This document shows positions 2,620 through 29,039 of a stretch of 64,000 nucleotides of DNA, piece by piece (position 1 is the first letter of the stretch; the number at the start of each line of letters is the position of its first letter). The DNA is taken from positions 186,001 to 250,000 of the forward strand of contig JACRKC010000083.1 in assembly GCA_016235555.1 (NCBI GenBank), written 5' to 3'. The notes below the pieces were generated by a model. That model saw only the letters and a program-made list of their open reading frames with translations, ran no database searches and was not told the DNA's origin. The position numbers and the translations under genes were made by a program. Source of the stretch: Verrucomicrobiota bacterium. Lineage in GTDB: Bacteria; Verrucomicrobiota; Verrucomicrobiia; Opitutales; Opitutaceae.

Positions 2620-2937
2620 TTACTTGGCGCCACGGGTCAAATCCACGAGCGTGCGGAGAACGGATCGTAGTATTTGCCCGGCTTCTGGCGCCTGCGCGAG
2701 GCAACGTTCAGCCGCAGTGCAGGCAGACGCGCCGCGATAGAATGCGGTCCGTCCCACCTCCACGATGCCGCTGACGGTTGCGCCGAAGAATTCGAGCTCG
2801 CCTCCACAAATGCCGGAAATGGAACCGGCGGAGATATCGATGAGCCCTCGCTCACTGCACCAGCGCAGTTCAGATCTGAAATGCACTTTTGCATTGCTCG
2901 ATAAGTTCTGTCGCGTGAGGCCGAACACTGGTGACAC
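2620..2937 (-). CDS. Small hypothetical protein coupled to lysR-type gene
   Basis: A 105-residue frame in another phase overlapping the last 68 bases of the LysR-type gene. A GTG start at 2937 is preceded by GGAG five bases away. Codons after the overlap look genuine, with G/C-rich third positions and residues such as GELEFFGATVSGIVEVGR and a Cys-containing ACTAAERC segment. An alternative GTG start at 2886 would avoid most of the overlap. No family recognised. A competing frame (2637-2894) exists but has poorer codon use. If real, it is co-transcribed with the regulator and may belong to the ubiquitin-like locus. Confidence 0.5.
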   Translation of the reverse strand: MSPVFGLTRQNLSSNAKVHFRSELRWCSERGLIDISAGSISGICGGELEFFGATVSGIVEVGRTAFYRGASACTAAERCLAQAPEAGQILRSVLRTLVDLTRGAK

Positions 2938-3778
2938 GCGAACTCCAGATTAGGTGAATTTCGCGACTGAGCAGACCCAGCTCTTCACTCCTCAATGTGA
3001 ATACCATGTTGCTTGGTAGATCTTCAGTTGCAATTTCCGGTAAAACAGCCGCGAACCGACGGGAACGAACCGCCGCCAACACTTGTGGCAAAGACTGACA
3101 GGATAGGGCTGGCCTGAAACTGGGCGAAAGTTTTGTAGCGATGGCATTCAAGGTGGTTGTGAACTCACCATCCGAAACTTGCATCGCCATCGGAAAAGTT
3201 TTGAACAGGTCACGGATAGTAGGTGCCGTTTTTCCGGCGAGGAGCGCATGGGGGATCACGGCACAATACGTCAGGTTGCCGATCGGTGCTGATTTGAGAC
3301 CGGGCTTCATCGCGGATTTCCTCACAAGACCCAGGTCCATTCGTGATTCTAGCACTCGCTCGACTATGTCGTTCGTTCTCAGGCTCTCCGTGCCGAGGTG
3401 GATATGAGGAATTGCGTCCACGATTGATGCGATACGTGGAATAACCAGCCACTGGACTAGACTATCGCCGCCCCCAATTGTGTAGAAGACGTGCCGCTTT
3501 GCACAGCCGGCTTGGAAGTCCTCCATCATGCGGAAGAACTCGCGCGTCATATGTGCTAGGTGCTTTCCTTCTTCGGTCAGCCGGATGCGTTTCCCCTTAC
3601 GCTCCGCTAACTCGCACCCAAAATACTCTGCAAGCTCCCGAAGCTGGCGGCTATTTTGGCTATTACGCACCGGATTGCCGGGTGCGGCGCCAACAATGCT
3701 ACCTGCTTGACTAATAGCAATTAACGCATGTAATCTTTCAAGAGAAAGTCCGCGCTTCGAGAAAATGCTTTCAAACAT
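2870..3778 (-). CDS. LysR-type transcriptional regulator
   Basis: 302 residues, the normal length of the family. The N-terminus (LSLERLHALIAISQAGSI, then RQLRELAEYFGCELAERKG and RIRLTEEGKHL) is the LysR winged helix-turn-helix; the rest is the substrate-binding-like effector domain. The HTH is divergent: the loop after residue 30 (AAPGNPVRNSQNSR) is unlike the usual A..L..SQPA.S. It is divergently transcribed from the ubiquitin-like operon with 90 bases between, the classic arrangement of a LysR regulator and its target. It likely controls that operon; the effector is unknown. Confidence 0.85.
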   Translation of the reverse strand: MFESIFSKRGLSLERLHALIAISQAGSIVGAAPGNPVRNSQNSRQLRELAEYFGCELAERKGKRIRLTEEGKHLAHMTREFFRMMEDFQAGCAKRHVFYTIGGGDSLVQWLVIPRIASIVDAIPHIHLGTESLRTNDIVERVLESRMDLGLVRKSAMKPGLKSAPIGNLTYCAVIPHALLAGKTAPTIRDLFKTFPMAMQVSDGEFTTTLNAIATKLSPSFRPALSCQSLPQVLAAVRSRRFAAVLPEIATEDLPSNMVFTLRSEELGLLSREIHLIWSSRVTSVRPHATELIEQCKSAFQI

Positions 3779-3868
3779 GATTAAATAGTAATGTTTGCCT
3801 CAACCTGAGCGCTAGTCAAAAAATCGCGTTGGGTGTAATCTGCGGTCTTCACCAAAACACATACCATC
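3779..3868. promoter_or_regulatory. Divergent promoter region of regulator and ubiquitin-like operon
   Basis: 90 bases between two divergent starts, more AT-rich than the flanks. It must hold the promoters for both directions and, by family precedent, the LysR binding site. No strong Shine-Dalgarno precedes the ATG at 3869. Confidence 0.5.
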
Positions 3869-4138
3869 ATGAAAACTGAAGACGCTTCCAAAAAGCCCGA
3901 CGACAAAGTGAAGTATCAATACTTCTTGGATAACAAAAAATTCGAAACCGAGACTTCCTCGCTGAGTGGCTCGACCGTGCGGGGCCACCTGCCGCCAGAA
4001 AAGGCGGGCTATGCGATTTTCTTGGAATCGCAGGGCAACGAGCCCGATAAACAAATCAATGACGCGGACAACTTCTCCTTGGAAAAGAAGCCGCTTCGTT
4101 TTTACAGCGTGCCGCCCGCGAACTTCGGCCGTCAATGA
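3869..4138 (+). CDS. Ubiquitin-like (Multi_ubiq-type) protein, single domain
   Basis: 89 residues; after a charged 12-residue tail comes one beta-grasp-like domain of about 70 residues ending FYSVPPANFGRQ. The pattern (K..YFLDNKKFETETSSLSG, then YAIFLE, then LRFYSVPP) matches the repeats of bacterial multiubiquitin proteins, but only one repeat is present. There is no terminal diglycine. First gene of the operon; it overlaps the E2-like gene by ATGA. It should be the modifier that the downstream E1-like enzyme activates. Family assignment is from pattern and from the neighbours, which are the standard partners. Confidence 0.8.
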   Translation: MKTEDASKKPDDKVKYQYFLDNKKFETETSSLSGSTVRGHLPPEKAGYAIFLESQGNEPDKQINDADNFSLEKKPLRFYSVPPANFGRQ

Positions 4139-4521
4139 CACCCGTCCAAGAGCAGTTCGAGGAACTGAAGAATGACGAACGGTATAAGGATGCCGTTCTA
4201 GTGGCCCTGCCCGACGGGTCCTTCGTGGTGACGATTCCCAACGTCGTCACCGGACCGAAATGGTCCGTTCCGACAACCACGGTCAGATTCCATGTGCCCG
4301 TGCAATACCCGATGGCGCGGCCAGACTGCTTTTGGACGGATGCGGCCCTGCTTCTCGAAGGTGGTCGCGTGCCCCAGAATACAGGCGAGAATCCGATCCC
4401 TGGCGGAACGAATGTTGCGCTGCGGTGGTTCTCTTGGCACGTCACCCACTGGAGCCCCAACGACGATACGCTCACGACTTACCTGAACGTAATCAGAAAC
4501 AGAATCGCCGATCCTCGATGA
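4135..4521 (+). CDS. E2-like (UBC-fold, prokaryotic) conjugating protein
   Basis: 128 residues. It shows the E2 core: a central strand with VRFHVPVQYP, a YPxxRPD turn (59-64), then WHVTHWSPNDDTLTTYLNVI near the C-terminus, typical of prokaryotic E2 family E proteins. The only cysteine is C65, directly after the YP..RPD turn. Canonical E2 enzymes carry the catalytic Cys further on, after the HPN flap, and no Cys is there. So either C65 is reactive or the enzyme uses another chemistry. It overlaps the genes on both sides by ATGA. Confidence 0.8.
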   Translation: MTPVQEQFEELKNDERYKDAVLVALPDGSFVVTIPNVVTGPKWSVPTTTVRFHVPVQYPMARPDCFWTDAALLLEGGRVPQNTGENPIPGGTNVALRWFSWHVTHWSPNDDTLTTYLNVIRNRIADPR

Positions 4522-5843
4522 GCCGTCTCGTTCTCACGGTAGCGTTGCTCACTGAAGTTCGGGCGACTCTTCTTGCGTCTCCGATTGAAGCGTGCGCCGT
4601 GTTGCTGGGCACCACAGCAATTGCAGGCAACAGGATTGTTCGAATGGTTGTCCGGGAAGCGGTTTATCCCAAGGAGGATGACTACGAGGTGCGAACGGAA
4701 ATCGCCGCGCGATTGAAACCAGCGTTTGTCGCGGCGATAGCCCAACGGGCACGCCAAAGCGGAGAAACGCTGGTCTTTGCTCACTCTCACCCATTTCCGC
4801 TGAACTCATTCTCCGCGATCGATGATGCGGGCGAGCGAGCCTTGGCAGATTTCCTCGCGAATCGAATGCCGGAAACCAAACATGCCGCCATGCTGGTGAC
4901 TCCAGAAGTTACCATCGCTAGGGAAATCGGAACCGACCGGTTTCTGCGTGTATGCGGCGTTGGCGAGACATTGTCCTTTGGTGACGAACCTGCGCCCAGC
5001 AGCGACGACGCCAAGTATGACCGCCAGATCCGCATGTTCGGCCGGAAAGGTCAGCAGCGTCTCGCCAATCTGCGAATCGGCATTGTTGGCCTCGGTGGAA
5101 CGGGGTCTGTAGTGCTTGAGCAACTTATCCACCTCGGCGTTCGAAACTATTGCCTCCTCGATCCCGATACTGCTGACGAGTCGAATCTGAATCGGTTGGT
5201 CGGGGCAACCGATAGAGACGTAGGCAGGTCCAAAGTATCAATCGCCGCGGATATGGTCCGACGCTCGCATCCAAGCGCGATCATCGACGAATTGGATGGC
5301 AGTGTGCTGGTAGCGAAGACGGGAGCCAACCTGCTCGATGTTGATTTTCTATTTTGCTGCACTGACTCACAAGGTAGCCGATCGGTTCTCAATCAACTCG
5401 CTTACCAATATCTTATCCCGGGCATCGATCTTGGGGTCAGCATCGTGGCTTCTCAACAAGGGATCACGCATTTGGCGGGTCGAACCAACATGCTCGCGCC
5501 GGGTCTAGGCTGCTTTGTTTGCGGCAATTTGCTCAACCCGGAGGCCGTCCGAGTAGACCTGCTCACTGATTTCGAGCGTAACGCAGACCCCTATGTTATG
5601 GGAGCCCGGGAGCCGGCGCCGGCGGTGATCTCACTCAATTCGACCATCGCGTCGATGGCCGTCACGATGTTCATGGCAGCAGTTCTAGGCATTCCCTCGA
5701 CTGCGCGCTATATCAACTACAATGGATTAACAGGCACGTCGCGCCCCGCAGCAATCTCGCAACACCCCAAGTGCGTTATTTGTTCGCCGCGGGGCGCGCT
5801 TGCCCGCGGGAATTCGTGGCCAATGCCGGGGAGGCTGGATTGA
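4518..5843 (+). CDS. JAB/JAMM peptidase - E1 (ThiF) adenylyltransferase fusion
   Basis: 441 residues; the ATG at 4518 overlaps the E2 stop. Residues 1-150 are a JAB domain with a full JAMM set: E24, H89-x-H91, S99 and D102, which bind the catalytic zinc of deubiquitinase-like peptidases. Residues 165-441 are a ThiF/E1 domain: YDRQIRMFGRKGQ, ATP loop GLGGTGS (191-197), DPDTADESNLNR, and paired zinc-ligand motifs CFVC (332-335) and CVIC (419-422). It would mature or remove the ubiquitin-like protein and adenylate its C-terminus. JAB-E1 fusions beside E2 and ubiquitin-like genes are a known bacterial arrangement. A longer frame from 4260 exists, but the coupled ATG is clearly better. Confidence 0.9.
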   Translation: MSRLVLTVALLTEVRATLLASPIEACAVLLGTTAIAGNRIVRMVVREAVYPKEDDYEVRTEIAARLKPAFVAAIAQRARQSGETLVFAHSHPFPLNSFSAIDDAGERALADFLANRMPETKHAAMLVTPEVTIAREIGTDRFLRVCGVGETLSFGDEPAPSSDDAKYDRQIRMFGRKGQQRLANLRIGIVGLGGTGSVVLEQLIHLGVRNYCLLDPDTADESNLNRLVGATDRDVGRSKVSIAADMVRRSHPSAIIDELDGSVLVAKTGANLLDVDFLFCCTDSQGSRSVLNQLAYQYLIPGIDLGVSIVASQQGITHLAGRTNMLAPGLGCFVCGNLLNPEAVRVDLLTDFERNADPYVMGAREPAPAVISLNSTIASMAVTMFMAAVLGIPSTARYINYNGLTGTSRPAAISQHPKCVICSPRGALARGNSWPMPGRLD

Positions 5844-7414
5844 AAGCCTCCGAAAGAAACGTTGTGCTTGTTGCGGGCATAACGGACCTGAATCCGCAGC
5901 AAAAACGCCAGTTTGAGTTGCGGGGACTTAGCTACAAACTCATCAGACTCGACGCGCTCGACGCCGGTTTACTCGCCGCCGCAAAAGCCGTATTGGTCGC
6001 AGAACCACCGGGCAGATACGTTCAAACGGGTATGCTCCCACAGGACCGGGTTGAGACGTTGTTCAATTCTGGGATCATGATCGGGTTAGTCCCCTCCGAT
6101 CCTACGGGTTTCGCGCTCGCAAGAGGCGCTCGAGACAAGATTGAACGCCTAAATGGAACCAGCGAATCCCATACGGACAAAACAAGGAACGAAGCACTGC
6201 TTCCTACATGGTTTTATATTCACCAGGACCTCGAACAGGTTCTCGAAGTGATCAGAAATCACGATCCCGGGCCAAGCATCGATCTCGACACCGCGAAAGT
6301 AGAAGTTCCCGCCGGGGCTGATGAGGTTCCGACGAAGCATCAAGAGTTGATGCAACGCGCATTCCACGATGCGTCACGAATCATCGCAGAGAAGCTAGTG
6401 GGCGGTTTGATTTCAGACGGGGCCTATCGCGTATTCGTGATTCAGAAGAACTACGGTCCGCGTCCGATGCCGTTCTTCTTCAAGGTCGGAAAGGCAGACT
6501 TCGACTCCGTCAGAAAACTTTGGGACAATCCTCTAGCTAAGGAGCGCGTAAGTTACGACCTTTGGGCGGAACCGTATATTCCTTTTCACCTTAGGCCGGG
6601 ATTGATTCGCGACCGGTCAATCGCTGGCCCCTACTGGTCGGCGTTGGCTTGTCACTTCGTTGACGGTGCGGCGCCACTTGAGGTATCGCTGCACAACCGG
6701 CAAGCGTCCGGGATATTGTTCGCTCTATTCGAGACGACGCTACGCGGGTTAAGAGCGCACACACTTAGCTCGCCACCCGAAACCGGCGCCGTGGCTGATT
6801 TTATCGAAGAGCGAGTTGATGCCGCTCGTATCAAAAGCGATCCGGTAATGGCCTTACGTATTCCGGTCGCGAGAAAGCTTGGGCTGACGATGGATCCTGT
6901 GGTGCTCAGGAATGAACTCATCCGAAAGGCCAAACCGGTGAAGGCTGCACGAGGCATCTATCATGGTGACCTGCATTTCAAAAATGTTATGGTTCGTCAT
7001 CGCGATGCGATTGTAATCGATTTCGGATCAATGCGTGACCGCGGTCCTATCACGGCAGACCCCTGCGCCCTAGAGGCGAGTATCGTTTTTGGACCGATCG
7101 ACTGTGATGAGAAGGTCCACGGCGATTGGGAGGAGTTCGTCAAAAGCATCTACAAGAATCCGCTGGAGCCTCTTGCTCCTGCCGTAGATCACTTTCGATT
7201 CGCCTGGATGGCGCGTGCGGTTCGCGAATTGCGGCACGTGGCGCATTATTGTGGCGTGAGCCGTGAAGAAAATATCCTCATGCTCGCGGCGTCCCTCTTG
7301 CGGTATGCGCGGTTCCCGCGGGAAGAATTAAAGGATCGAAAAGCTCAGAAAATCTCCGAAACGCGGAAGGCTTTCGCCATGGCCATGGCCGAGAAACTTT
7401 GCAATCAGGTCTGA
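5840..7414 (+). CDS. Kinase-like (APH/choline-kinase fold) protein of ubiquitin-like operon
   Basis: 524 residues from a TTG at 5840 that overlaps the E1 stop as TTGA, with GGGGAGG ending 5 bases upstream; the nearest upstream ATG (5771) lies deep inside the E1 gene and lacks such a site. Residues 1-100 look Rossmann/receiver-like (NVVLVAGITD, AVLVAEPP, GIMIGLVPSD). Residues about 190-480 form a kinase-like domain: K215 in FFFKVGK, HGDLHFKN (375-382) and IDFGSM (393-398), so all usual catalytic and metal-binding residues are kept. It resembles aminoglycoside phosphotransferases and the TCAD9-type domains described from bacterial conflict systems. Substrate unknown; the operon suggests it acts on a component or target of the conjugation pathway. 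Confidence 0.75.
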   Translation: MKASERNVVLVAGITDLNPQQKRQFELRGLSYKLIRLDALDAGLLAAAKAVLVAEPPGRYVQTGMLPQDRVETLFNSGIMIGLVPSDPTGFALARGARDKIERLNGTSESHTDKTRNEALLPTWFYIHQDLEQVLEVIRNHDPGPSIDLDTAKVEVPAGADEVPTKHQELMQRAFHDASRIIAEKLVGGLISDGAYRVFVIQKNYGPRPMPFFFKVGKADFDSVRKLWDNPLAKERVSYDLWAEPYIPFHLRPGLIRDRSIAGPYWSALACHFVDGAAPLEVSLHNRQASGILFALFETTLRGLRAHTLSSPPETGAVADFIEERVDAARIKSDPVMALRIPVARKLGLTMDPVVLRNELIRKAKPVKAARGIYHGDLHFKNVMVRHRDAIVIDFGSMRDRGPITADPCALEASIVFGPIDCDEKVHGDWEEFVKSIYKNPLEPLAPAVDHFRFAWMARAVRELRHVAHYCGVSREENILMLAASLLRYARFPREELKDRKAQKISETRKAFAMAMAEKLCNQV

Positions 7415-7420
7415 CAGACG

Positions 7421-7942
7421 ATGAAGGCCAAACATATCACGCTGCTGCCGCATGTTACGACCCACCACGAGGGCCTTGCGCAACTCAAGACGGCTGGCGA
7501 CTCGGTTATGATCGTTCGGGGCGTCCCGCGCATGCTTTTGATGCGGTGCCCCTGTGGATGCGGAGACGACCTCAATATCAATCTCGACCGTAGGGCTGGA
7601 CCAGCGTGGCGCCACTATTTAAGGGAGGGCGCGTTGACCCTCTTCCCTTCCTATTGGCGCGACTCTCATTGTGGGTCGCACTTTATTCTGTGGAATAGTG
7701 AGATCTATTGGTGTGATTGGGACGATGATAGCTATTGGAATCACTCCACGGGAATCGAAACGCGCGTCTGGGATTCCTTGACCTACGATTGGATCAATTA
7801 CGAAGCTCTCGCCGATCAGCTCGGCGAAATCCCTTGGGATGTGCTTCAGGCATGCTACTCACTATCGCGTCAAGGGAGAGTCGAACAACGTGCAGGCCGT
7901 AGCACTGGGGCGTTTCGCAGAAAATCGCTCATAAAAGCGTGA
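7421..7942 (+). CDS. DUF6527-like zinc-cluster protein, last gene of ubiquitin-like operon
   Basis: 173 residues, starting 6 bases after the kinase-like gene. The hallmark is MRCPCGCGDDLNINL (about 40-54), a CxCxC cluster likely to bind metal, followed by Trp-rich C-terminal segments (HFILWNSEIYWCDWDD). Proteins of this type (I believe DUF6527) are regular neighbours of bacterial E2/E1/ubiquitin-like genes; their job is unknown, possibly target recognition or an E3-like role. The final 50 residues (ETRVWDSLTYDW... onward) extend beyond what I remember for the family. Confidence 0.65.
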   Translation: MKAKHITLLPHVTTHHEGLAQLKTAGDSVMIVRGVPRMLLMRCPCGCGDDLNINLDRRAGPAWRHYLREGALTLFPSYWRDSHCGSHFILWNSEIYWCDWDDDSYWNHSTGIETRVWDSLTYDWINYEALADQLGEIPWDVLQACYSLSRQGRVEQRAGRSTGAFRRKSLIKA

Positions 7943-8324: not shown

Positions 8325-8349
8325 GGTTCGAATCCCCGTGGGGACGCCA
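8325..8349 (+). repeat. Left attachment repeat (attL), tRNA 3'-end sequence
   Basis: 25 bases identical to 40148-40172. The sequence holds GGTTCGAATCC (T-loop) and ends GGGGACGCCA, the 3' acceptor end of a tRNA including CCA. Upstream bases do not fold into the rest of a tRNA, and even the T-stem is imperfect (CACGG against CCCCG), so this is a fragment and not a gene. It marks the junction of the left island and the conjugative element. Confidence 0.85.
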
Positions 8350-11234: not shown

Positions 11235-12800
11235 ATGGGCGGGCAGCATCAACTCCCGCTCGGCCCGCACGATGCCGCTGCCATTCCGGCGGCGGCATAC
11301 GTGCGCATGTCCACCGAACATCAGCAGTATTCGACCGAGAATCAGCTCGACCGGATCAAGGAGTATGCCGCGCGGCGGCAAATGACGCTGGTGCGTGTCT
11401 TCGAGGATGCGGGCAAAAGCGGTTTGAATGTGCGTGGGCGGGACAGCCTCCGCCGTATGATCGAGGAAGTCGAAACCGGGCGCGCTGACTTCAAGTGCAT
11501 CCTAGCATACGACGTGAGTCGCTGGGGCCGTTTTCAGGATGCCGACGAAAGCGGCTACTACGAATACATCTGCAAGCGCGCGGGGATCGCGGTCCACTAC
11601 TGCGCGGAGCAGTTCGAAAACGACGGCTCGCCCACCTCCAACATCATCAAGAGTGTGAAACGCTCGATGGCCGGAGAGTATAGCCGCGAGCTGTCGTCGA
11701 AGGTTTTCCAAGGGGCCTGCCGGTTGATTCAGCTCGGTTTCAAACAAGGCGGTGCGGCCGGCTACGGACTGCGCCGGATGCTTGTGGATCAATCCGGCCA
11801 GACCAAGGGCGTGCTTCGCATCGGCGAGCACAAAAGCCTCCAGACAGACCGCGTGGTTCTCGCGCTTGGCCCGGACGAGGAAGTCGAAACCGTGAAATGG
11901 ATCTACCGCACTTTCCTTGCCGAAGGGCTCACGGAGCGCGAAATCGGGGAGCGTCTCAACGCTCGCGGCCTCCGCACCGATCTTGGTCGAGCGTGGACGC
12001 GCGGGACGGTCCATCAGATTCTGACCAACGAAAAGTATGTCGGGAATAACGTCTATCACCGGACATCCTTCAAACTGAAGCGGAAGCATGTGCTGAATCC
12101 GCCCGATATGTGGATTCGCGCGAAGGGCGTCTTTCCCGCGATTGTTCCCGTAGAGGATTTCGTCCGGGTCCAGGAAATCATCATCGCCCGCGCGAAGCGA
12201 TTCAGTGACGAGGAAATGCTGGCCAAGCTCAGGGAGTTGCTGACTCAACACGGCCGTCTTTCGGGCGTCATCATCGATGAACGCGAAGACCTTCCCTCCA
12301 GCGCCGCCTTCCGTCACCGCTTTGGCAGTTTGGTGCGGGCTTATCAGTTGATCGGCTATACCCCGGAAACCGACTACGGTTTCATCGAAGTTAACCGGTT
12401 CCTTCGTCAGAAACATCCGGAGGTCGTTCAAGAGGTCATCACGAAGCTGACCACCCAAGGGGTGCGAGTTGAGCGCGATCCGGCCACGGAACTTCTCGTC
12501 TTGGACAACGAGCTGGTCGTCTCGCTGGTGCTATCACGCTGCCTCCGCACCCCGGCGGGGTCGCCGCGGTGGCTTGTGCGTTTCGAGGAACGCCATCGCC
12601 CGGACATCACGATTGTCGCGCGGATGGACGAGGCCAATCAGGTGATCAAGGACTACTACCTTTTCCCGGCGCTCGATCGCTTGGCGCTGCGCCTGCGACT
12701 CGCCGAATTCAACAGCGCGTTTCTGGATGTCTACCGTTTCGACGACCTCGGGTTCTTCTACGATCTCGCCGAGCGCGTCTCCATCGAGGAAGTTGCATGA
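11235..12800 (+). CDS. Large serine recombinase family protein
   Basis: 521 residues. Residues 20-165 are the resolvase catalytic domain: AYVRMST with catalytic S26, YDVSRWGRFQDADES, and the EYSRELSSK segment. Residues 175-350 are the recombinase domain (GYGLRRMLVD, LTEREIGERLNARGLRT, RGTVHQILTNEKYVG), followed by a C-terminal region without the usual zinc beta-ribbon Cys. It would cut and rejoin DNA through a phosphoserine intermediate. It overlaps the first ParB-like gene by ATGA, forming an operon with it. Its target site is not evident. Confidence 0.9.
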   Translation: MGGQHQLPLGPHDAAAIPAAAYVRMSTEHQQYSTENQLDRIKEYAARRQMTLVRVFEDAGKSGLNVRGRDSLRRMIEEVETGRADFKCILAYDVSRWGRFQDADESGYYEYICKRAGIAVHYCAEQFENDGSPTSNIIKSVKRSMAGEYSRELSSKVFQGACRLIQLGFKQGGAAGYGLRRMLVDQSGQTKGVLRIGEHKSLQTDRVVLALGPDEEVETVKWIYRTFLAEGLTEREIGERLNARGLRTDLGRAWTRGTVHQILTNEKYVGNNVYHRTSFKLKRKHVLNPPDMWIRAKGVFPAIVPVEDFVRVQEIIIARAKRFSDEEMLAKLRELLTQHGRLSGVIIDEREDLPSSAAFRHRFGSLVRAYQLIGYTPETDYGFIEVNRFLRQKHPEVVQEVITKLTTQGVRVERDPATELLVLDNELVVSLVLSRCLRTPAGSPRWLVRFEERHRPDITIVARMDEANQVIKDYYLFPALDRLALRLRLAEFNSAFLDVYRFDDLGFFYDLAERVSIEEVA

Positions 12801-13684
12801 AGCCCGAATCCGAGCATGAGGTGATGATGATCCCGGTTCAAGCCGTGCGGATAGCCAATCCTCGCGTGCGTGACCGCCGAAAATTCGAGCTGATTGTCCG
12901 AAGTATATCGGAGCAAGGTCTGAAACGTCCGATCACCGTCACCGAAGCCAAGGCCGACGACAAAGGTCAGCCGACGTATGATCTGGTCTGCGGTCAGGGC
13001 CGGCTGGAGGCTTTCATCTCACTGGGTCAGTCGGAAATTCCGGCCTTCGTGCGGAGGATGACGAAGACCGATGGCCTGATCGCCAGCCTCGTGGAAAACA
13101 TCGCGCGGCGGCGGGTCCGTTCGCTCGATCAGATTCGACTCATTCAGTGGATGCACGATCAGGGCAACTCGCTCGAGGAAATCGCCCGCAAAACCGGTCT
13201 CGCGGAAAAGTATCTTCAGGGAATTCTGAAACTCCTCGCCCAGGGAGAGGATCGGGTGTTGGACGCCGTTCTCCACGGTCGATTGCCCATCACCATTGCT
13301 GTCCAGATTGCCAGCACGGACGATGACGGTGCCCAACGCATGCTCCTGGAGGCCTATGAGCGCGGCGCCATGAAACAGGTGTCGCTGTCATCGTTCCGCC
13401 GTCTGCTCGAACAGCGAAAGTGCTTCGGCAAAGGCTACAACAACGCCGCCAAGTTTCGGGCTCGTCGCCGGACTAGCACCGACGGTCTCATCCTCGCCTA
13501 TAAGCAGGAGACCCAGCGCCAGAAGCTCATGGTGAAAAAAGCCCGTGCCTGCGAAACGCGCCTGCTCTCCTTGGCGGCGGCCTTCAAGGCGCTCTACGCC
13601 GATGAGAACTTCACCACGCTATTGCGGGCCGAGGATTTGGACACGCTGCCGAAGTTCCTCATGGAGCGGGTCCGCCAATCCTGA
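12797..13684 (+). CDS. ParB/RepB-like DNA-binding protein 1
   Basis: 295 residues from the ATG overlapping the recombinase stop; the in-frame extension to 12569 lies inside that gene. N-terminal ParB fold: IPVQAVRIANPRVRDRRKFE, YDLVCGQGRLEAF (GQGR in place of GERR), ENIARRRV. HTH at about 125-150: NSLEEIARKTGLAEKYL. The remainder is helical. Probably binds specific DNA together with the second ParB-like protein; used in the module for target choice or element maintenance (inferred). No ParA partner is present. Confidence 0.85.
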   Translation: MKPESEHEVMMIPVQAVRIANPRVRDRRKFELIVRSISEQGLKRPITVTEAKADDKGQPTYDLVCGQGRLEAFISLGQSEIPAFVRRMTKTDGLIASLVENIARRRVRSLDQIRLIQWMHDQGNSLEEIARKTGLAEKYLQGILKLLAQGEDRVLDAVLHGRLPITIAVQIASTDDDGAQRMLLEAYERGAMKQVSLSSFRRLLEQRKCFGKGYNNAAKFRARRRTSTDGLILAYKQETQRQKLMVKKARACETRLLSLAAAFKALYADENFTTLLRAEDLDTLPKFLMERVRQS

Positions 13685-14568
13685 TGAGTGAGACCAAAAA
13701 AGTTCGCATTGGATTTGAGCGCCGCGGATTCGAGATCCCTATCGGCTCGATCCTGCCGATCCGGCAGATAAAGCCGTCGGACGGCTGCTTCGGCAAATAC
13801 CGCGCGGTGCTCGCTTCGATCAAATCAGTGGGACTCGTGGAACCGCTCGTGGTTTTCCCCAACAAGGGGTCGAAGGGCACGTTCCTGCTTTTGGATGGCC
13901 ACATGCGCCTGAAGGCGCTGCAGGAGATCGGCAGCTCTACTGCGCTGTGCCTGATTTCCACGGATGACGACGCCTTCACCTATAACGACAAAGTTAACCG
14001 GCTGTCCCTGATTCAAGAGCACCGGATGATCATGAAGGCCCTCGATGGCGGGGTAACTGAAGAAGCCATCGCCAAGGCCTTGGACATCGACGTTAAGAAA
14101 GTCATCTTGAAGAAAGGGCTGCTGGATGACCTCCATCCGGAGGCCATTCAGATTCTCAAAGACAAGCCGATCACCGAGCGCGCGCTCAAAATTCTCAAGC
14201 GGGTCAAGGCACTGCGGCAGATCGAAATGGCGCAGCTCATGGTCAGCGGTAACAACTACACCTTTGCCTACGCCCGCGCGCTGCTCCTTGGGACAACACC
14301 GGAGCTGCTGCTGAATCCGGATCAATCCAAGAAGGTCAAGGGCATGCCGGCGGAGGACGTCGCGCGCATCGAAAAGGAAATGGAAACGATGGAACGGGAC
14401 TTCCGCATCTTTCAGGACAGCTACGGCGAAAACACGCTGCACCTCGGCGCGGCTCAGCGATATGTCCGCAAGCTCCTCGATAACGGGAAAGTGAAGCGCT
14501 TCATGGGCCAGCGCTACCCGGAGTTGTTGGAGGAGCTTCAGGAACTCGCGGCGCTGGAGGCGTTGTGA
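13684..14568 (+). CDS. ParB/RepB-like DNA-binding protein 2 (RepB C-terminal type)
   Basis: 294 residues; ATG shares its first base with the previous stop (TGATG). ParB domain with SILPIRQIK, FLLLDGHMRLKALQEIG; then HTH GVTEEAIAKALDIDVKKV and a RepB-type C-terminal domain (RALKILKRVKALRQIEMAQLMV, NNYTFAYARALLLGT). It pairs with the upstream ParB-like protein. Final gene of the recombinase module; it is followed by a short AAGCCTC/GAGGCTT stem around 14649-14690. Confidence 0.85.
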   Translation: MSETKKVRIGFERRGFEIPIGSILPIRQIKPSDGCFGKYRAVLASIKSVGLVEPLVVFPNKGSKGTFLLLDGHMRLKALQEIGSSTALCLISTDDDAFTYNDKVNRLSLIQEHRMIMKALDGGVTEEAIAKALDIDVKKVILKKGLLDDLHPEAIQILKDKPITERALKILKRVKALRQIEMAQLMVSGNNYTFAYARALLLGTTPELLLNPDQSKKVKGMPAEDVARIEKEMETMERDFRIFQDSYGENTLHLGAAQRYVRKLLDNGKVKRFMGQRYPELLEELQELAALEAL

Positions 14569-14726
14569 TGCCTCACGCCGTTCTTTTTCACCCGCACCAC
14601 GCCGCATCCAACGAGTTCAACGGGCTGGCACCCTGACGCCGAAACGACCAAAGCCTCCGGGCGAATATGGGCACGAGGCCGTGAGGCTTGGTGGAAATGC
14701 GTTCTTTTGTGGTCGGGTGACACTTC

Positions 14727-14933
14727 TTACTTCGCGGCGACTTTAAGCCGCGTGCTCAGCACCTTGATGTCGATCTCGGCGCTGACGACAGTGGCGCGGG
14801 CCTTGGCGAGGCGGACCTCGGCTTTCATCAACTCGCGCTTGAGGGTGTCGAGTTCGTCGGTGGTAGTCGAGGTTCGGGGGTTGCGGGCAAAGGCGGGAGT
14901 TTCAGCGGTTCCGTTGTTCATGGGTGATGACAT
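14727..14933 (-). CDS. Small coiled-coil hypothetical protein
   Basis: 68 residues: a Thr/Pro-rich lead, then ELDTLKRELMKAEVRLAKAR, a heptad-like amphipathic helix to the C-terminus. Good codon use. No family recognised; small coiled-coil proteins are frequent beside ICE transfer genes. The 250 bases after its start (14934-15179) hold only promoter-like sequence for the next gene. Confidence 0.6.
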   Translation of the reverse strand: MSSPMNNGTAETPAFARNPRTSTTTDELDTLKRELMKAEVRLAKARATVVSAEIDIKVLSTRLKVAAK

Positions 14934-15179
14934 TGATTGTGAAGGTGCCGGTCAACGGAGTGCTGATCGGCGCTGATGATTGAAGCGCCTTGAGTGCGCC
15001 AGGCACGCGAGCGCGCCTACCGGAAACACATGACGGGATCTGCCGTGAATTCGGTAGCTTTCAGTCGCCAGGCTGCGGCCTGTTACATCTCCACCCCTAT
15101 CCGATCACTAAAATCGCGCGTAAGGTTTCCGCGACGTGCCGAACGGCACTAATCACCACCAATAACAACAAGGAATAAG

Positions 15180-15317
15180 ATGAACGGCCCAAAAGATGAT
15201 GACGACAATCATGCGAACCAACTGAACTCGAACAACGACGCCTACTGGCAGAGTCGCGGCGAAGACGAACGCCCCGACGACTGGCAGGAGCGGACGGATG
15301 CCGACGAAGAGGATTAA
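15180..15317 (+). CDS. Very small acidic protein
   Basis: 45 codons: MNGPKDDDDNHANQLNSNN, then YWQSRGEDERPDDW and a DADEED tail. AAGGA lies 6-7 bases before the ATG and a strong hairpin follows 12 bases after the stop, so it is a self-contained gene. Extremely acidic (about one third Asp/Glu), asparagine-rich, no hydrophobic core. Could be a DNA mimic or a regulator of conjugation; this is a guess from charge alone. Confidence 0.6.
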   Translation: MNGPKDDDDNHANQLNSNNDAYWQSRGEDERPDDWQERTDADEED

Positions 15318-15329
15318 TATCAGACGCTC

Positions 15330-15361
15330 AAGGCGGCTGGCTTTTCAACGCCAGCCGCCTT
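15330..15361. terminator. 12-bp stem terminator
   Basis: AAGGCGGCTGGC, 8-base loop, GCCAGCCGCCTT, then a short T run. It ends the acidic-protein gene on the plus strand and also covers the 3' end of the leftward restriction-fragment frame. Confidence 0.75.
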
Positions 15362-15815
15362 TCGGCGCGCAGCCTTTCCAGTTCTTCGATGCCGAGGCGG
15401 ATAGCCAGATAGCAGTTTCGACGGCTTCAACCTGGCAAAAGAACGGGCGGACCCCGCTGAATTTATGGTGGCGCCAATGCTGGAGGAGGCGGGCAGTCTC
15501 CGGAGTCACCTGCCAAAGATTGGGCGCAAGCTCCCGCCACTGATCAACGTGGGAGCGGATTTCGTTGATGACCGACGTAGGATCATACTGCTGCTTCGCG
15601 GTCGAGATGCCCTGACCTTCATCGAAGATGATGTTCTCCTGAGCCGCCGATCCTCGCCGCTTTTTCGGCTTCGGAATCGGCGTGATAAACTCGGCCCGCC
15701 TGCGCTTCTCCAGAATCTGCTGGGTGGGCTGCCCTTGCTTATCCAGCTCCCAATGCCGTTGCGGGCAATCGTAAGGGCTGTTGAGGATGGGGTGCTCGAA
15801 GAAAGGATTGGCCAT
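15345..15815 (-). pseudogene. N-terminal fragment of a type III-like/BPTD_3080-type restriction endonuclease
   Basis: 156 residues from ATG 15815: MANPFFEHPILNSPYDCPQRHWELDKQGQPTQ (shown by its parts: MANPFFEHP, NSPYDCP, HWELDKQGQPTQ), EFITPIPKPKKRR, then EIRSHVDQWRELAPNLWQVTPE and RPFFCQVEAVETAIWL. These are the opening of large helicase-type restriction enzymes of about 1000 residues. The frame ends soon after IWL, before any Walker motif, within the hairpin of the neighbouring terminator. The helicase and nuclease parts are absent, so it is a remnant unless the short form has been repurposed. Confidence 0.7.
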
Positions 15816-16059
15816 TGTTACGAGAGTCGACGTCAGGCAACGAACCAATGGCCCAATGGTTCTTTCAGAACCTTATCAATATAAAGCGTTTTTGGGACAA
15901 GCATCGATTTGAGCGGCGAATTGAAAGCGGCTCATGGTAGGTGCTTCGTAAAGTCGTTGGCAACACCCATGCGCCGCAGGGTAATGCGAAAAGACTATCC
16001 TGCGCCGGTTGGTGCGCCCCGAATCGACTAAAATCAGCGCCCCGCTCGCGGCGCGGCTC

Positions 16060-16335
16060 TTACTGGCCCAGCCCCTGACGATGACTATGCGTTACCCGCG
16101 CTGTCAGGTTCTGACTCAAGTCGCGTCTCTCCCGGGAATGCTTCAGCAGTGTTTCCGCAATGGAGGTATCGCCGGACTCCACAAACGCCTTCACCTCGTG
16201 CTTGGTGCGGATGTGGTCGGCCGGTCCCATTTCCTTCACCCGAAGTCGCTCGGTGATTAACCGGACGGCGTCATCCTCCTTGCGGAGGGCGAGCAGGGTT
16301 TGGACGGTGAGTTCTGGGCTCTTTTCGGGGTTCAT
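16060..16335 (-). CDS. Small hypothetical protein downstream of traD
   Basis: 91 residues, starting 25 bases after the coupling-protein stop in the same direction, so probably co-transcribed. Highly charged and helical (TLLALRKEDDAVRLITERL, then HIRTKHEVKAFVESGD). No family recognised. The 244 bases beyond (15816-16059) show no gene. Confidence 0.6.
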   Translation of the reverse strand: MNPEKSPELTVQTLLALRKEDDAVRLITERLRVKEMGPADHIRTKHEVKAFVESGDTSIAETLLKHSRERRDLSQNLTARVTHSHRQGLGQ

Positions 16336-16359
16336 CGAACGAAATTCAATTATAGGGGA

Positions 16360-17988
16360 TTAGCGCGGACGGAGGGAGACTTTTTTGAAACCGTTTGTGC
16401 AATGACGCACCACGGCGGTGTGGTCGGACAGGCTCCGGAATTCGTGCGGCTTGATCCGATACTCCTCCACCCGCTGATACGTGTGGGCCGTATGGTCCAA
16501 ATGCACGGTCCGGGTGGCACGCTCAACCCAGTGTTTACCCAGCGCATTCGCACACCGGAGAGCGTCGGTCTCGGACGCGGCCCGATACATCACGAGGTTC
16601 TTAAGATTGAGGGCTAGAACCTCGGCTTGTTCCTTGGTTTGAGGCGGAATCAACGACTCGAACGCCTGGGCAGACACCACCAGCATGAGCATGCAATCCC
16701 GGAGCCTATCGATGACGTTAAAATCACTGGTGCCGTCGTGGCTGGCCGTGATGGCGTTCTGAAACTCGTCCCCCACGTAAACGAGCTGGTTCAGGGCATA
16801 CTTCTGCCACGGGGGTAGCGCGTAGCGCCGGAGGGCGTGCCGGTAGAGTAGAAGTTTGATGACGGTGAACACATACTGCCGCTCCGTGGTGTAGTCCTGG
16901 GGCACGTCGATGCAGAAAATCTTGCCCTTATCCACGTCGGCCATCGTGCAGGTGTCGGGCTCGTTGGAACTGAAAATTTCAGCGATTTCGGCCGTCCCGA
17001 GGTATTCGAGGTAGTTTTGGGAGGTGCCGATCTCGCCGGCCCGCTGTTCTTTCGCCTCATGCTTCAGGTAGGTCTGCTCCAACGTCTCGGCGAGACGAAT
17101 ACGTCGCTCGGTCGGCTCCAATTCCGTGAGTTTCTCCAGCGCGGCTTTCAACTCCCGTTCCGAAGTCAGCAAGTCGTAAGCGTTGGTCGCGGTTACGGGC
17201 CGTCCGATGTCGGCCAGCAACTCGAACGCGCGGCCGATGTGGGCGGCACCCTTCACCTTGAAGAAGCCTTTTTCGTCCCGCGGATTCAATGCGGCGGCCG
17301 TATCGACCAGAATTCGCGCCCGGGTCGTGAACGGCAACCGGGCATCGCCCGTGACGTTCAGACGATGCGACACCTTGCCTGGCTCTCCAACCAGACGTGG
17401 ACGGAGGCGGATGATGTCATGCTCTCGGCCATACTTTTTCGCGAGCCATTCGAGGTAAAACCACTCGTCTCCCTTGTTCGCCATGACCACGCCGCCGAGC
17501 GTGGGATTGCGCCGAACCAAATCGGCAAGGAGCGCGTTCATACCGGAGGTCTTGCCGGAACCGGTGTCGCCGGAGAAGAAGAAGTGCCGGTTGGCCTTGT
17601 CCCGCGTCCATCTGAATCCGGCGAAAGCGAGCACGATCTGCCACCGGTCCGCGACTACTTTGCCGGCCGGGTCGCGCACGTAGCGCCGATGGTCGCCGTA
17701 GTAGAACAGTCCGCCTGCCAACGCGCACAAAGAGGCGCCAACAGCGTATCCCCAAGGTAAGGGCAACCGGCTCGCTCCGAATAGACCGGAGGCGGAGATC
17801 GCGAGGGCGAAAGGCAGCGCCAAGGGAAGGCGCAACCCGGGCTCATTGTGGCGAAGATTCCGCAGAATCAGCCACCCGGCGAAGGCGAGAAACAGGCCTG
17901 AAATGGCGAACGCCACCACCGTGATGGCCTGCGGATCGTGCAGCCATTGACGCATCAAGACGTAAGGTGCCGGGAGCGTTTTCATCAT
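16360..17988 (-). CDS. traD: Type IV coupling protein (VirD4/TraD family)
   Basis: 542 residues from the ATGATG at 17988; an upstream frame to 18186 crosses the promoter hairpin and is unlikely. Three membrane segments lie in residues about 20-97 (ITVVAFAISGLFLAFAGWLI, the next two before FYYGDHRR). Then the TraD ATPase domain: Walker A GDTGSGKT (about 137-144), VMANKGDEWF, and Walker B LVYVGDEFQN. It recruits the relaxase-DNA complex to the secretion channel and energises transfer at the inner membrane. Divergent from the relaxase, with a possible oriT between. Confidence 0.9.
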   Translation of the reverse strand: MMKTLPAPYVLMRQWLHDPQAITVVAFAISGLFLAFAGWLILRNLRHNEPGLRLPLALPFALAISASGLFGASRLPLPWGYAVGASLCALAGGLFYYGDHRRYVRDPAGKVVADRWQIVLAFAGFRWTRDKANRHFFFSGDTGSGKTSGMNALLADLVRRNPTLGGVVMANKGDEWFYLEWLAKKYGREHDIIRLRPRLVGEPGKVSHRLNVTGDARLPFTTRARILVDTAAALNPRDEKGFFKVKGAAHIGRAFELLADIGRPVTATNAYDLLTSERELKAALEKLTELEPTERRIRLAETLEQTYLKHEAKEQRAGEIGTSQNYLEYLGTAEIAEIFSSNEPDTCTMADVDKGKIFCIDVPQDYTTERQYVFTVIKLLLYRHALRRYALPPWQKYALNQLVYVGDEFQNAITASHDGTSDFNVIDRLRDCMLMLVVSAQAFESLIPPQTKEQAEVLALNLKNLVMYRAASETDALRCANALGKHWVERATRTVHLDHTAHTYQRVEEYRIKPHEFRSLSDHTAVVRHCTNGFKKVSLRPR

Positions 17989-18306
17989 CGATCGTGCGGA
18001 AAACGAAGCGCGCATCTCGCGAATCCGCGAGGATGCGACCCTACCGAAAAAAGGGTAGTTCGGTCGGCTCCGCGCGCTCCTGGCCGACTCACGGCGGCTC
18101 GGTGCCCCGAACCCAACGAACTCGTTAGGGCCTTGCGTCTGTGGCCAGAAAAGCGCGGGGGATTTACGCCCACCCTCCCGGCTCATCGTAGCGGCTGACG
18201 TTCGCCAACGAAGCCGAGGACTACCGTGCGACCGGTAGGCTTGCTACCCCGGACTCGGGAGGGCCGCTCCGTTGAGGACCGGAAGGTAAACCGACGTGAT
18301 GATGGC
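17989..18306. other. Divergent intergenic region, candidate oriT
   Basis: 318 bases between the coupling protein and the relaxase. It holds the 18-base stem (18041-18058) repeated before the secretion operon and several short inverted repeats near 18188-18250. MobF systems usually carry oriT beside the relaxase gene, so this is the most likely nick region; no nic consensus was identified. Confidence 0.4.
18041..18058 (-). promoter_or_regulatory. CTACC hairpin element upstream of traD
   Basis: Reads CTACCCTTTTTTCGGTAG on the minus strand, exactly the sequence found on the plus strand at 21499-21516 before virB2. Same orientation to the gene in both places and a further GGG or GG in common downstream, so a shared operator or leader for the two transfer operons is likely. 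Confidence 0.55.
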
Positions 18307-21030: not shown

Positions 21031-21413
21031 TGGAACGCGCACCACTCCGGAAGCCGAAGCTCTATTTCGACGCGGGTGCGAGTCCCAGTCACGTCACGTT
21101 CGACGATGGCAAGGACCAACGCCGCAACCTTCCGTGGATGCACTACGTCGAGGCCCGCTGGGACTATGCTGAACCGGACACGATCAAGATCGAGATCGGC
21201 GATTGGCTGGTGGTCGTGCGCGGGCACAACCTCGCGCCGCTTTTTCTCGCGATAGAGGAACATTCGCTGGCACGCGTGCGCGCGCAGCCGGAACTGCAGG
21301 CGGACCGTGAGCACGAAGCGGACACGTTCGCCGTGGAGATTCGGTTCATGAAGCCGGCCGCGAACCCGTTCGGAAAGAAGCCCCCCGGGCAGCTCGAATT
21401 GGAAACGGGTTAG
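21027..21413 (+). CDS. Hypothetical protein coupled to relaxase
   Basis: 128 residues; start overlaps the relaxase stop. Beta-rich sequence (HVTFDDGKDQRRNLPW, IKIEIGDWLVVVRGHNL) followed by a charged tail. No family recognised. Tight coupling suggests a relaxosome or transfer accessory role. The 236 bases after it (21414-21649) hold the promoter element of the secretion operon and no gene. Confidence 0.65.
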   Translation: MMERAPLRKPKLYFDAGASPSHVTFDDGKDQRRNLPWMHYVEARWDYAEPDTIKIEIGDWLVVVRGHNLAPLFLAIEEHSLARVRAQPELQADREHEADTFAVEIRFMKPAANPFGKKPPGQLELETG

Positions 21414-21498
21414 TCATCAACTACGTCTCATCTTACGGTAGCGCGGACCGGTCTCACTATATCCGGACGTGGTCTACGTCTCGGTTCCAAAACTTGTC

Positions 21499-21516
21499 CT
21501 ACCCTTTTTTCGGTAG
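21499..21516 (+). promoter_or_regulatory. CTACC hairpin element upstream of secretion operon
   Basis: CTACCCTTTTTTCGGTAG, identical to the element before traD on the other strand. It lies 134 bases before virB2. Confidence 0.55.
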
Positions 21517-21649
21517 GGCCGGTTCCTTGCGACAGCGCCGGGGTTGTCCCTTTTGGAAACCAGCACGGATTTCCCGTTGCCCAGCAACAGTCGAAACCAC
21601 CGCGCGGGAGTCGGCCCCCATAAGTGCCGGCATCAACAGGAGAGATAAC

Positions 21650-22063
21650 ATGACAACCTTGGTTCATCTGACGCCTTATGTGGCGTTCGCTCTCGGTGTG
21701 GCGATGATGATGCGGGCGCTGCACCTGAATTCGCAATATCGTCCGGCAGCGTCCGCTAATCCGTGGCCGCGCGCCGCGATCTGGTTCGCCGCCGTGCTTT
21801 CGTGGCCGACGCTCGCCCACGCCCAGGCGGTCGATCTGCGCACGGCGACGGAAGCGGGCAACGCGATCATCATGTATCTGAGCGGCACGTTTGCGGCGGT
21901 CGGCATCGTGGCGGCCGGTGTCGCCATGATGATGGGCCGACAGTCCATCGCGAAGTGGGCTTTTGCCGGAGCCATGGTGAGCGGACTCGCCTTCGCCATC
22001 GTGCGGACGATGTGGAGCAACATGGGCATCGAAGCCTCCAACGTCGGCACCTTCTCGCCCTGA
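21650..22063 (+). CDS. virB2: VirB2/TrbC-like pilin
   Basis: 137 residues from ATG 21650, preceded by CAGGAGAG. An N-terminal hydrophobic leader ends near AWFAAVLSWPTLAHAQA, a likely cleavage site, giving a short mature peptide with two membrane helices (IIMYLSGTFAAVGIVAAG and WAFAGAMVSGLAFAIV) separated by MMMGRQSIAK, the VirB2/TrbC plan. It would form the conjugative pilus. First gene of the secretion operon. Confidence 0.85.
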   Translation: MTTLVHLTPYVAFALGVAMMMRALHLNSQYRPAASANPWPRAAIWFAAVLSWPTLAHAQAVDLRTATEAGNAIIMYLSGTFAAVGIVAAGVAMMMGRQSIAKWAFAGAMVSGLAFAIVRTMWSNMGIEASNVGTFSP

Positions 22064-22084
22064 TCCGATTCCCACGCGCGTCCC

Positions 22085-22687
22085 ATGCACTCGACGCATC
22101 TCAACGAGCACGACGCCAATCAGGGCGCGCAGTCTTCCGGGGAGTTCCTGGGGATGACCGGGAACTCGGGCTGGTATCTGCTGGGCTCCGGGGGCGCGAC
22201 GATCCTGATGGTGATTTTCCTGTGGGGCATCTTCGGGGTCTCGCTGCTGCTGTGCCTACTGGTGGGCGTGGTGCTCTGCACGCTCTCGGTGGCGTATGTG
22301 TTCACCCTGAAAAACAACAAGCCGGAGCACTACGACACCGATTTCTTTGAATCCGCCTTGGTCGAGTCGGGACTGCTCTCCTTCCAATTCGGCCCGCGTG
22401 CCCGGCGTCCGGCGAATCCCTTCGCCGGCGCCGGTTCCGCGCTTGCACCTGAGTTGACGGCGCGGGAGTCGGTTCCGTCCCGGCCCGCCGTCGGGTTGGG
22501 TCGCCAGTCCGCAACGACGGTCGGTCGGTCTGGCTTGGAGTCGCCCGAGCGGAAAGAAGCCTCACCAAACAAGCGGGAGCAACCCGTGGTGGCGCGCGCC
22601 GACTATGAGCGATTGCAGGAACAGCTCACGGTCACGGAAGACATGCTGGAAGAGGCGCTCGCGGAGCGCGGGGAGGAAGTCGCATGA
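22085..22687 (+). CDS. virB3: VirB3/TrbD-like membrane protein with long tail
   Basis: 200 residues. Residues about 30-80 hold two close membrane helices (LMVIFLWGIFGVSLLL and LLVGVVLCTLSVAYVFTL) as in VirB3. The remaining 120 residues are a disordered, Pro/Ser/Arg-rich tail ending in a short coiled coil (YERLQEQLTVTEDMLEEALA), longer than the usual VirB3. It overlaps VirB4 by ATGA, consistent with the known VirB3-VirB4 partnership. Confidence 0.75.
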   Translation: MHSTHLNEHDANQGAQSSGEFLGMTGNSGWYLLGSGGATILMVIFLWGIFGVSLLLCLLVGVVLCTLSVAYVFTLKNNKPEHYDTDFFESALVESGLLSFQFGPRARRPANPFAGAGSALAPELTARESVPSRPAVGLGRQSATTVGRSGLESPERKEASPNKREQPVVARADYERLQEQLTVTEDMLEEALAERGEEVA

Positions 22688-25386: not shown

Positions 25387-25390
25387 TGCC

Positions 25391-26050: not shown

Positions 26051-26069
26051 ACGTCAACCAAGGCAACCC

Positions 26070-27367: not shown

Positions 27368-27406
27368 CTCCGAACACCCTCGGAAAAAATCGGTCAAAAC
27401 GGTCAT

Positions 27407-27640: not shown

Positions 27641-27654
27641 TCGCCAGAAATCCC

Positions 27655-28836: not shown

Positions 28837-29039
28837 GCCCGATTTTCAATTTTCATCGGAAGTATCCCAAGGTGCTCAAGGATCTGGCCCGTGAGACTGA
28901 CCGCCTAGCCAAAGCTGAGGACGACATGGCGAAAGCGATGCTTGAAACAATGAGGCAAGACGACGCCGAGAATCATGTTAGGCCACCGACGGAAGCGCGT
29001 GTCCCTGCCCAACCGAATCACGACAAAAAACGGAGGTAA
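28833..29039 (+). CDS. Small hypothetical protein of secretion operon
   Basis: 68 residues, coupled to the TrbL stop. Basic N-terminus (FNFHRKYPKVLKDLAR), a helical charged middle and a Pro-rich basic tail. No family recognised; likely cytoplasmic. Confidence 0.6.
   Translation: MSPIFNFHRKYPKVLKDLARETDRLAKAEDDMAKAMLETMRQDDAENHVRPPTEARVPAQPNHDKKRR

Follow-up and report, generated by a model that had tools for sequence, protein, structure and literature searches.

Bacterial Bil pathways and CBASS systems with Cap2 and Cap3 operate by a logic of E1, E2 and JAB-type proteins, which is shared by the operon studied here. This operon lies in a 64,000-nucleotide stretch of DNA from a Verrucomicrobiota bacterium (positions 186,001 to 250,000 of contig JACRKC010000083.1, assembly GCA_016235555.1; hereafter the window), and it encodes a kinase in addition to a ubiquitin-like protein (Ubl) and its conjugation enzymes. 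Two groups of described operons stand closest to it. Bub operons, studied by the Corbett laboratory (Citrobacter structures 9eae, 9eav and 9ea4), encode an E2 and a JAB-E1 fusion that are homologous to those of the window; as far as the available part of one study goes, 544 such operons are counted, damage-responsive controllers stand beside many of them, CapW and CapH+CapP are reported as neighbours, and phage protection is undemonstrated (PMC13373217). The type 6e operons of Iyer, Burroughs and Aravind (2006) are described, in the accessible portion of that paper, as holding a polyUbl, an inactive E2-like protein, a JAB-E1 protein and a metal-binding protein Y (PMC1779556).

We found that the kinase gene recurs beside Bub-type conjugation genes within one clade of E1 proteins that extends over several phyla. 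Our preferred reading, to which we give a probability of roughly 0.45, is that the operon of the window belongs to a distinct branch of Bub-type operons that gained a dedicated kinase, most likely a protein kinase acting inside the pathway.

A five-gene operon joins a Bub-type conjugation core to a kinase

The operon occupies positions 3869-7942 of the window on the plus strand, where five genes follow one another with three overlaps of 4 bases and a single gap of 6 bases, exactly at the coordinates given in a preliminary description of this DNA:

3869-4138, plus strand: Ubl with a single beta-grasp domain, 89 residues, C-terminus ...PPANFG-RQ, which ends two residues past the conserved glycine
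4135-4521, plus strand: E2-like protein, 128 residues, with a Prok-E2_E match (1.8e-9); ATGA overlap with the Ubl gene
4518-5843, plus strand: JAB-E1 fusion, 441 residues, with complete JAMM and ATP-site residues and four zinc-type cysteines; ATGA overlap with the E2 gene
5840-7414, plus strand: kinase, with an N-terminal domain (about residues 1-145) and a kinase domain (about residues 160-524); TTG start and TTGA overlap with the JAB-E1 gene
7421-7942, plus strand: DUF6527 protein with CPCGC and CxSH motifs and a C-terminal extension, 6 bases after the kinase gene

The sequence GGGGAGG stands just 5' of the TTG start of the kinase gene. Pfam matches over the cut-offs were obtained for the E2-like protein (Prok-E2_E, as listed above), the two halves of the JAB-E1 fusion (Prok-JAB, 2.7e-9; ThiF, 1.4e-35), the kinase (TCAD9, 1.6e-11; APH, 1.9e-5) and the last protein of the operon (DUF6527, 2.3e-16). 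The Ubl matched Multi_ubiq weakly (14.7 bits, under the cut-off of 24.5), and its relatives at the equivalent operon position are annotated as multiubiquitin. When profiles were compared with solved structures, the best relative of the E2 was Citrobacter BubB (6.9e-18) and that of the E1 was Citrobacter BubCD (7.1e-55, profile positions 3-391); since these are the closest solved relatives, we take the conjugation core to be a Bub pathway. The Pfam matches and the BubB and BubCD homology thereby agree with the identities first proposed for the Ubl, E2, JAB-E1 and DUF6527 proteins, with the weak profile match of the Ubl, and the JAB-E1 motifs that had been called complete are so: the JAMM residues E24, H89, H91, S99 and D102, and the ATP loop GLGGTGS.

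Among 54 kinase-bearing loci (near-copies counted; L018 excluded as a wreck without an E1), 44 have the gene order Ubl-E2-E1-kinase-DUF6527 and seven the order Ubl-E2-E1-DUF6527-second Ubl-kinase, while three are cut by a contig end. The five-gene combination is far beyond chance. Fusions between the kinase gene and a partner gene were absent among the fetched loci, in which the only fusion is one of Ubl and E2 in L064.

Two variations on this architecture were seen. Seven loci (L047, L062, L065, L066, L068, L072 and L091) hold the second Ubl gene directly before the kinase gene, after the DUF6527 gene, and five of these second Ubls end in PPTAFG plus 7-8 residues, those of L047 and L066 being different. 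A tandem pair of DUF6527 genes follows the kinase gene in L035 (10027-11043) and L074 (9949-10991).

The kinase gene is inherited together with the conjugation core

E1 homologues were scanned for in one genome per species over 84,980 species, and the best 80 of 145 loci were kept, so that E1 proteins outside the clade described below are under-sampled. Profiles of the five proteins were run on the genome and plasmid loci, with a kinase counted as present at E 1e-15 or better; the stretches fetched reached up to 7 kb to either side, less on small contigs, and absence outside the clade refers to these stretches. The E1 tree comprised 94 rows (91 different; L015 and L021, with a short E1, and L018, with none, were omitted), and the kinase occurs in 53 of the 59 rows of one clade (support 100/98) and in 0 of the 35 rows outside it. 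The fewest changes that explain the kinase labels on this tree number 5, compared with a mean of 30.6 after shuffling, and 0 of 500 shuffles came as low. By the names of the records, the clade spans Pseudomonadota, Verrucomicrobiota, Gemmatimonadota, Acidobacteriota, Deinococcota and the candidate division FCPU426, and the E1 rows nearest to the window include Limisphaerales. Outside the clade, L078 holds a weak match to the kinase profile (3791-4762; 2e-8, below the threshold) about 2 kb upstream of its E2/E1 pair.

A kinase profile was built from 42 of the 51 full-length kinases (55 kinases in all, those of L018, L029, L038 and L045 being short), the omitted ones being those of six annotated-plasmid loci, the near-copies L028 and L032, and the short L067. 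Every one of the 31 matches that this profile gave below 1e-130 in the 34 genomes of clade loci lies at an operon, and no match falls between this group and 5.6e-6. Two genome sets that overlap in part, 384 from the class and 387 from the phylum, were searched with at most four candidates scored per genome, and the only full-length kinase was that of the window itself; partial matches, mostly round the catalytic loop, were found in 129 and 136 other genomes, respectively, the best of them at 1.3e-10 over profile positions 253-379.

A tblastn search of plasmids with the kinase returned 13 records, in all of which a DUF6527 match directly adjoins the kinase. Seven of these records (H7-H13) are near-copies of one Bradyrhizobium locus. 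Seven distinct plasmid loci were inspected: six have all five genes in order, including L015, whose E1 is broken, and L014 and L016, where the E2 gene is present though unannotated, and the seventh is the wreck L018. The plasmid query with the E1 gave 56 records; among the 40 listed, 13 had at least 41% identity and 12 of these 13 carry the kinase, while the other 27 listed are absent from the kinase records. The kinase gene, which had first been described as part of a coupled operon, is thus not mainly found away from Ubl operons in the genomes and plasmids searched.

Pairwise distances over 48 loci gave Spearman coefficients of 0.60-0.68 between the kinase and the other four proteins and of 0.57-0.65 among those four (L015, L018, L020, L021, L028, L029, L032, L038 and L045 were left out). 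Altogether, the kinase is co-inherited with the conjugation core. Copies of the kinase were absent from 50,697 phage records searched by tblastn, and pattern scans of viral contigs found none with both kinase and E1.

These linkage data also bear on the idea that the kinase gene serves aminoglycoside resistance or metabolism and is merely co-transcribed. The APH match in Pfam and an APH(3') enzyme as top structural match (see below) would suit such a gene, but the curated APH(6) model of NCBIfam reached 12.1 bits where 325 are required, and the 31/31 operon linkage, the adjacency on plasmids and the restriction to one clade contradict it. We accordingly rejected a resistance-type APH, a stray resistance gene and a chance linkage, and hold this explanation to be extremely unlikely.

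The kinase has a predicted APH-like fold and invariant catalytic residues

K215, E235, H375, D377, N382 and D394 are identical in all 51 full-length kinases, which come from several phyla, and so is G189 of the G-loop. The catalytic motifs first read from the window kinase were Lys215, HGDLHFKN and IDFG: K215, the motif residues H375, D377 and N382, and D394 withstood the comparison, whereas the glycine of IDFG did not, as it is kept in 3 of the 51 only. A structure model from 42 sequences (pLDDT 88.5, pTM 0.87) had APH(3')-Ia as its top Foldseek match (2.3e-7), and structure comparison placed it beside the choline/ethanolamine kinase 3dxq_B (Z 17.6, rmsd 3.6, 263 residues) and chain 9dk1_A of the lexapeptide dehydratase LxmKY (Z 17.0, rmsd 4.0, 284 residues). 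The similarity to a kinase fold that had been anticipated is therefore clear, and by fold and residues the protein is a kinase, for which phosphotransfer itself is predicted. CaoK, an APH-like enzyme, phosphorylates serine and threonine residues of a precursor peptide according to the accessible part of its description (PMC9486802); by this analogy, the fold permits a protein substrate without proving one.

All 42 kinases match TCAD9 at E 0.01 or better. The match of the window kinase (44.5 bits, cut-off 40) covers profile positions 289-347 of 429, about 60 residues round the catalytic loop. In the available text of one survey, TCAD9 is linked to vWA-MoxR-VMAP conflict systems (PMC10910872).

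Modelled alone, the N-terminal domain (pLDDT 82.4) resembles flavodoxins or receivers in its alpha/beta fold, and its structural matches are weak: Foldseek gave 1.1e-3 at best, and the highest Z was 8.8, for a methionine synthase chain, with many ties. The phospho-acceptor aspartate of receivers was not found in this domain, nor was any invariant column over 39 rows, where only R6 and R28 reach 90%.

The APH fold could also serve as a platform in a protein that has lost catalysis and acts as a scaffold or as an adaptor binding the Ubl or the target. Protein-kinase domains of vWA conflict systems mostly show disrupted catalytic residues, as reported in the accessible portion of a study of these systems (PMC7159879), which would give such a protein a precedent, but here six core catalytic residues are kept in all 51 full-length kinases and we consider a non-catalytic role improbable.

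Conserved features of the conjugation proteins

In all 54 kinase-bearing loci the C-terminus of the first Ubl is P(P/K)(A/T)xFG plus 0-4 further residues, a conserved end that the JAB domain would be expected to trim back to the glycine. The JAMM residues H89, H91, S99 and D102 are kept in 59/59 rows of the E1 clade and E24 in 58/59, and the ATP-site residues examined in the E1 are kept in 58 or 59 of the 59.

Position 100 of the E2, within WFSWH, is a serine in all 52 kinase-bearing loci examined and in all five kinase-less members of the clade. Of 27 E2 proteins outside the clade, 18 carry Ser here, 5 carry Cys and 4 show a gap. Because related E2 proteins outside the clade carry a cysteine there, we take position 100 to be the E2 active site, one that would use serine in the clade. 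The proteins with Cys-100 are those of L078, L084, L087, L098 and L101, so that serine and cysteine alternate within the E2 family. Bub pathways are reported, by Ye et al., to use oxyesters. The cysteine of the E2 motif PDCFW, which we also considered, is probably not the active residue, as it is Ser100 that aligns with the cysteine of the five related proteins.

The DUF6527 proteins differ in the length of the tail past CxSH, the median being 87 residues in kinase-bearing loci, 85 in kinase-less loci of the clade and 11 outside the clade; tails could be parsed in 42/51, 5/6 and 6/14 proteins, respectively, and that of L017 has 46 residues. Among the tails parsed, the long C-terminal extension appears as a clade-specific feature. 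The four zinc-type cysteines of the E1 were dropped as a mark of the clade, since 23-28 of the 35 rows outside it also keep them.

The same cysteines, which we take to be equivalent to those of MoeB, are one reason to ask whether the operon might encode a ThiS/MoaD-type sulfur-carrier or cofactor pathway and not conjugation; another is that the E1 half is closest to ThiF/MoeB in NCBIfam. However, the ThiF/MoeB models shown were all far under their cut-offs, an E2 and a JAB domain are present, the nearest solved relatives are the Bub E1 and E2, and the Ubl ends in FG, not GG. A sulfur-carrier pathway therefore seems very unlikely.

A possible mechanism and the place of the kinase

We infer the following reaction steps, a protein substrate for the kinase and a role in defence or stress. 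The JAB domain would trim the Ubl to ...PPANFG and the E1 domain would adenylate its C-terminal glycine, after which the Ubl would move to the E2, probably onto Ser100 as an ester and not a thioester, and from the E2 to a target; DUF6527 would help to choose or bind this target, and the JAB domain may also remove the Ubl from it. Most likely the kinase would act on a protein, be it the Ubl, the E2, some other component or the target once conjugated, and would thus set when conjugation or its output is on. The kinase accompanies this one branch through several phyla, which makes it probable that tagging and phosphorylation belong to a single system. Should the Ubl or the E2 be its substrate, phosphorylation and ubiquitin-like tagging would cross-talk in bacteria.

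A narrower and doubtful version is that the kinase reversibly caps the active Ser100 of the E2, an idea suggested by the apparent use of serine in place of cysteine, or that it phosphorylates the Ubl, in parallel with PINK1, which phosphorylates ubiquitin. If either were true, a bacterial ubiquitin-like pathway would have its own phospho-switch.

Several observations weigh against a protein kinase acting inside the pathway. The enzymes listed with its fold mostly modify small molecules. Six rows of the E1 clade lack the kinase, so conjugation need not have it, and the genomes of L049, L053, L060 and L061 have no kinase match anywhere. The genome of the window also carries a second Bub operon without a kinase (L159 4517-7056, on contig C111). 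Finally, at sites conserved to at least 90% in kinase-bearing loci (L018, L021, L028 and L032 were left out of this comparison), no serine or threonine of the Ubl, E2, E1 or DUF6527 protein tracks the presence of the kinase. The kinase is thus accessory to conjugation, and regulator and effector fit this about equally.

The kinase could instead be an effector that acts on a small molecule or a host component, with Ubl conjugation to the kinase itself or to an inhibitor switching or placing it, and we regard such a role as nearly as likely as that of an in-pathway protein kinase. Its fold neighbours are kinases of small molecules, for example choline, methylthioribose, maltose and aminoglycoside kinases, and TCAD9, with its tie to conflict systems, is matched in 42/42 kinases. 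The available part of the study of vWA systems cited above (PMC7159879) counts APH kinases among the effectors of conflict systems, with small molecules as their possible substrates. The kinase-less rows, of which at least four have an intact core, suit an effector as well. On the other side, no replacement stands in the kinase slot between E1 and DUF6527 in L020, L060, L061, L064 or L049, where the two genes are spaced by 20-30 bases in the first four and by 289 bases in L049, and in sequence the coupling between kinase and core matches in strength that among the core genes themselves. Two kinase-less loci may be decayed operons, namely L053, with a shortened E1 and no DUF6527 gene, and L020, with a shortened E1 between insertion sequence genes.

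In the second Bub operon, E1 and DUF6527 are supported by profiles, the DUF6527 protein being short (124 residues), and a Ubl, an E2 and, upstream on the other strand, an M78-like peptidase and a sigma-factor-like gene were recognized by sequence impression only. The role of the kinase is directly testable with point mutants, with this kinase-less operon of the same genome and with the natural kinase-less members of the clade.

Regulators and genomic setting

In the genome (8.03 Mb in 140 contigs), the operon lies at an end of a roughly 173-kb region with tRNA sequences as its borders, next to a 31.8-kb element that carries relaxase, TraG-like, RepB and recombinase genes. The features concerned are:

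2870-3778, minus strand: divergent LysR-type regulator (LysR_substrate 1.1e-19, HTH_1 4e-10), a candidate controller of the operon
8325-8349, plus strand: 25-base copy of a tRNA-Glu 3' end, about 380 bases past the end of the operon, probably the right-hand limit of the region in which the operon lies
40148-40172: third copy of the tRNA-Glu 3' end
Contig C49, 20847-20924 (L157 8848-8925): intact tRNA-Glu, with an integrase-like gene, by sequence impression, just behind it
11235-30628: genes of a conjugative element, encoding a serine recombinase, RepB, a TrwC relaxase and a TraG-like ATPase, with a weak TraK_C match under the cut-off

The tRNA-Glu and both 3'-end copies, whose ends were found by pattern, have a common orientation, and ARAGORN found no tRNA genes in the window. 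The intact tRNA and the copies bound two neighbouring regions that are probably mobile, one of about 173 kb and the other of 31.8 kb. Such mobility fits a cargo for defence or stress without showing that role.

A LysR homologue holds the equivalent place beside the sister operon L053 (7.9e-94). Elsewhere, 17/57 loci have a member of a WYL-type family (of the 16 shown, 14 are directly upstream on the same strand and 2 divergent). A UvrD helicase that also has an M78 domain accompanies 11/57 (10 directly upstream, that of L035 downstream), and 6/57 have an upstream HTH-M78 gene on the opposite strand. Pfam was run on one example of each regulator type and on the Deinococcus locus, and the candidate regulators differ by sub-branch. 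In L055 (2255-5722), the one locus whose domains were checked, the helicase is a protein of about 1150 residues that combines an M78 metallopeptidase, a UvrD helicase and a PD-(D/E)XK nuclease.

Three further neighbours were recorded in the window: an HTH_17 and PIN_3 gene pair (1557-2598) that adjoins the LysR gene and is possibly a toxin-antitoxin pair; a protein with a Schlafen AlbA_2 domain (37204-38841) inside the 31.8-kb element; and a 1049-residue protein (40359-43508) with DUF5122 beta-propeller repeats and immunoglobulin domains.

Comparison with known systems

Compared with Bub, the E2 of the window shares its Ser100, which aligns with a serine of BubB, and the WYL and HTH-M78 regulators upstream of related operons resemble CapW and CapH+CapP, whereas the window itself has a LysR-type regulator in place of a damage-responsive controller (CapW, CapH+CapP or CapK+CapS). 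This branch differs from Bub by its kinase, by the long C-terminal extension of DUF6527, by the DCFW motif of the E2 and by two zinc-type cysteines of the E1 that are absent in BubCD, the other two lying beyond the aligned stretch.

With type 6e operons the locus shares a Ubl, an E2/RWD-like protein, a JAB-E1 protein and mobility, and we match protein Y to DUF6527 by position and description, not by sequence. In the accessible portion of the 2006 paper, the kinase is missing from the table row of these operons, their Ubl usually has two or three domains (a solo Ubl in one species) and their E2 is termed inactive, unlike the operon of the window. As to Bil and CBASS, the E1-E2 models of PADLOC cover only the ThiF part of the JAB-E1 fusion, and no PADLOC model matched the Ubl, E2, kinase or DUF6527 protein at E 1 or better.

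The kinase shares with APH/choline kinases and TCAD9 the fold, the G-loop glycine, the lysine, the glutamate, the HxDxxxxN motif and the aspartate, but differs by its N-terminal alpha/beta domain and its operon context. The class V lanthipeptide kinases LxmK and CaoK (9dk1_A being taken as LxmK) also have an APH-like fold, yet they act with a lyase in peptide maturation and without a ubiquitin-like partner.

The preliminary description held that no described bacterial system had this five-gene composition. For the core this does not stand, as it is that of Bub and type 6e operons; for the set of five genes it does, within the literature searched, where nothing on point was found for DUF6527, for Multi_ubiq or for an APH kinase with ubiquitin-like systems. 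What emerges, and would be new unless the central Bub papers already list the kinase, is a kinase-bearing branch of Bub operons that recurs and still awaits an explanation.

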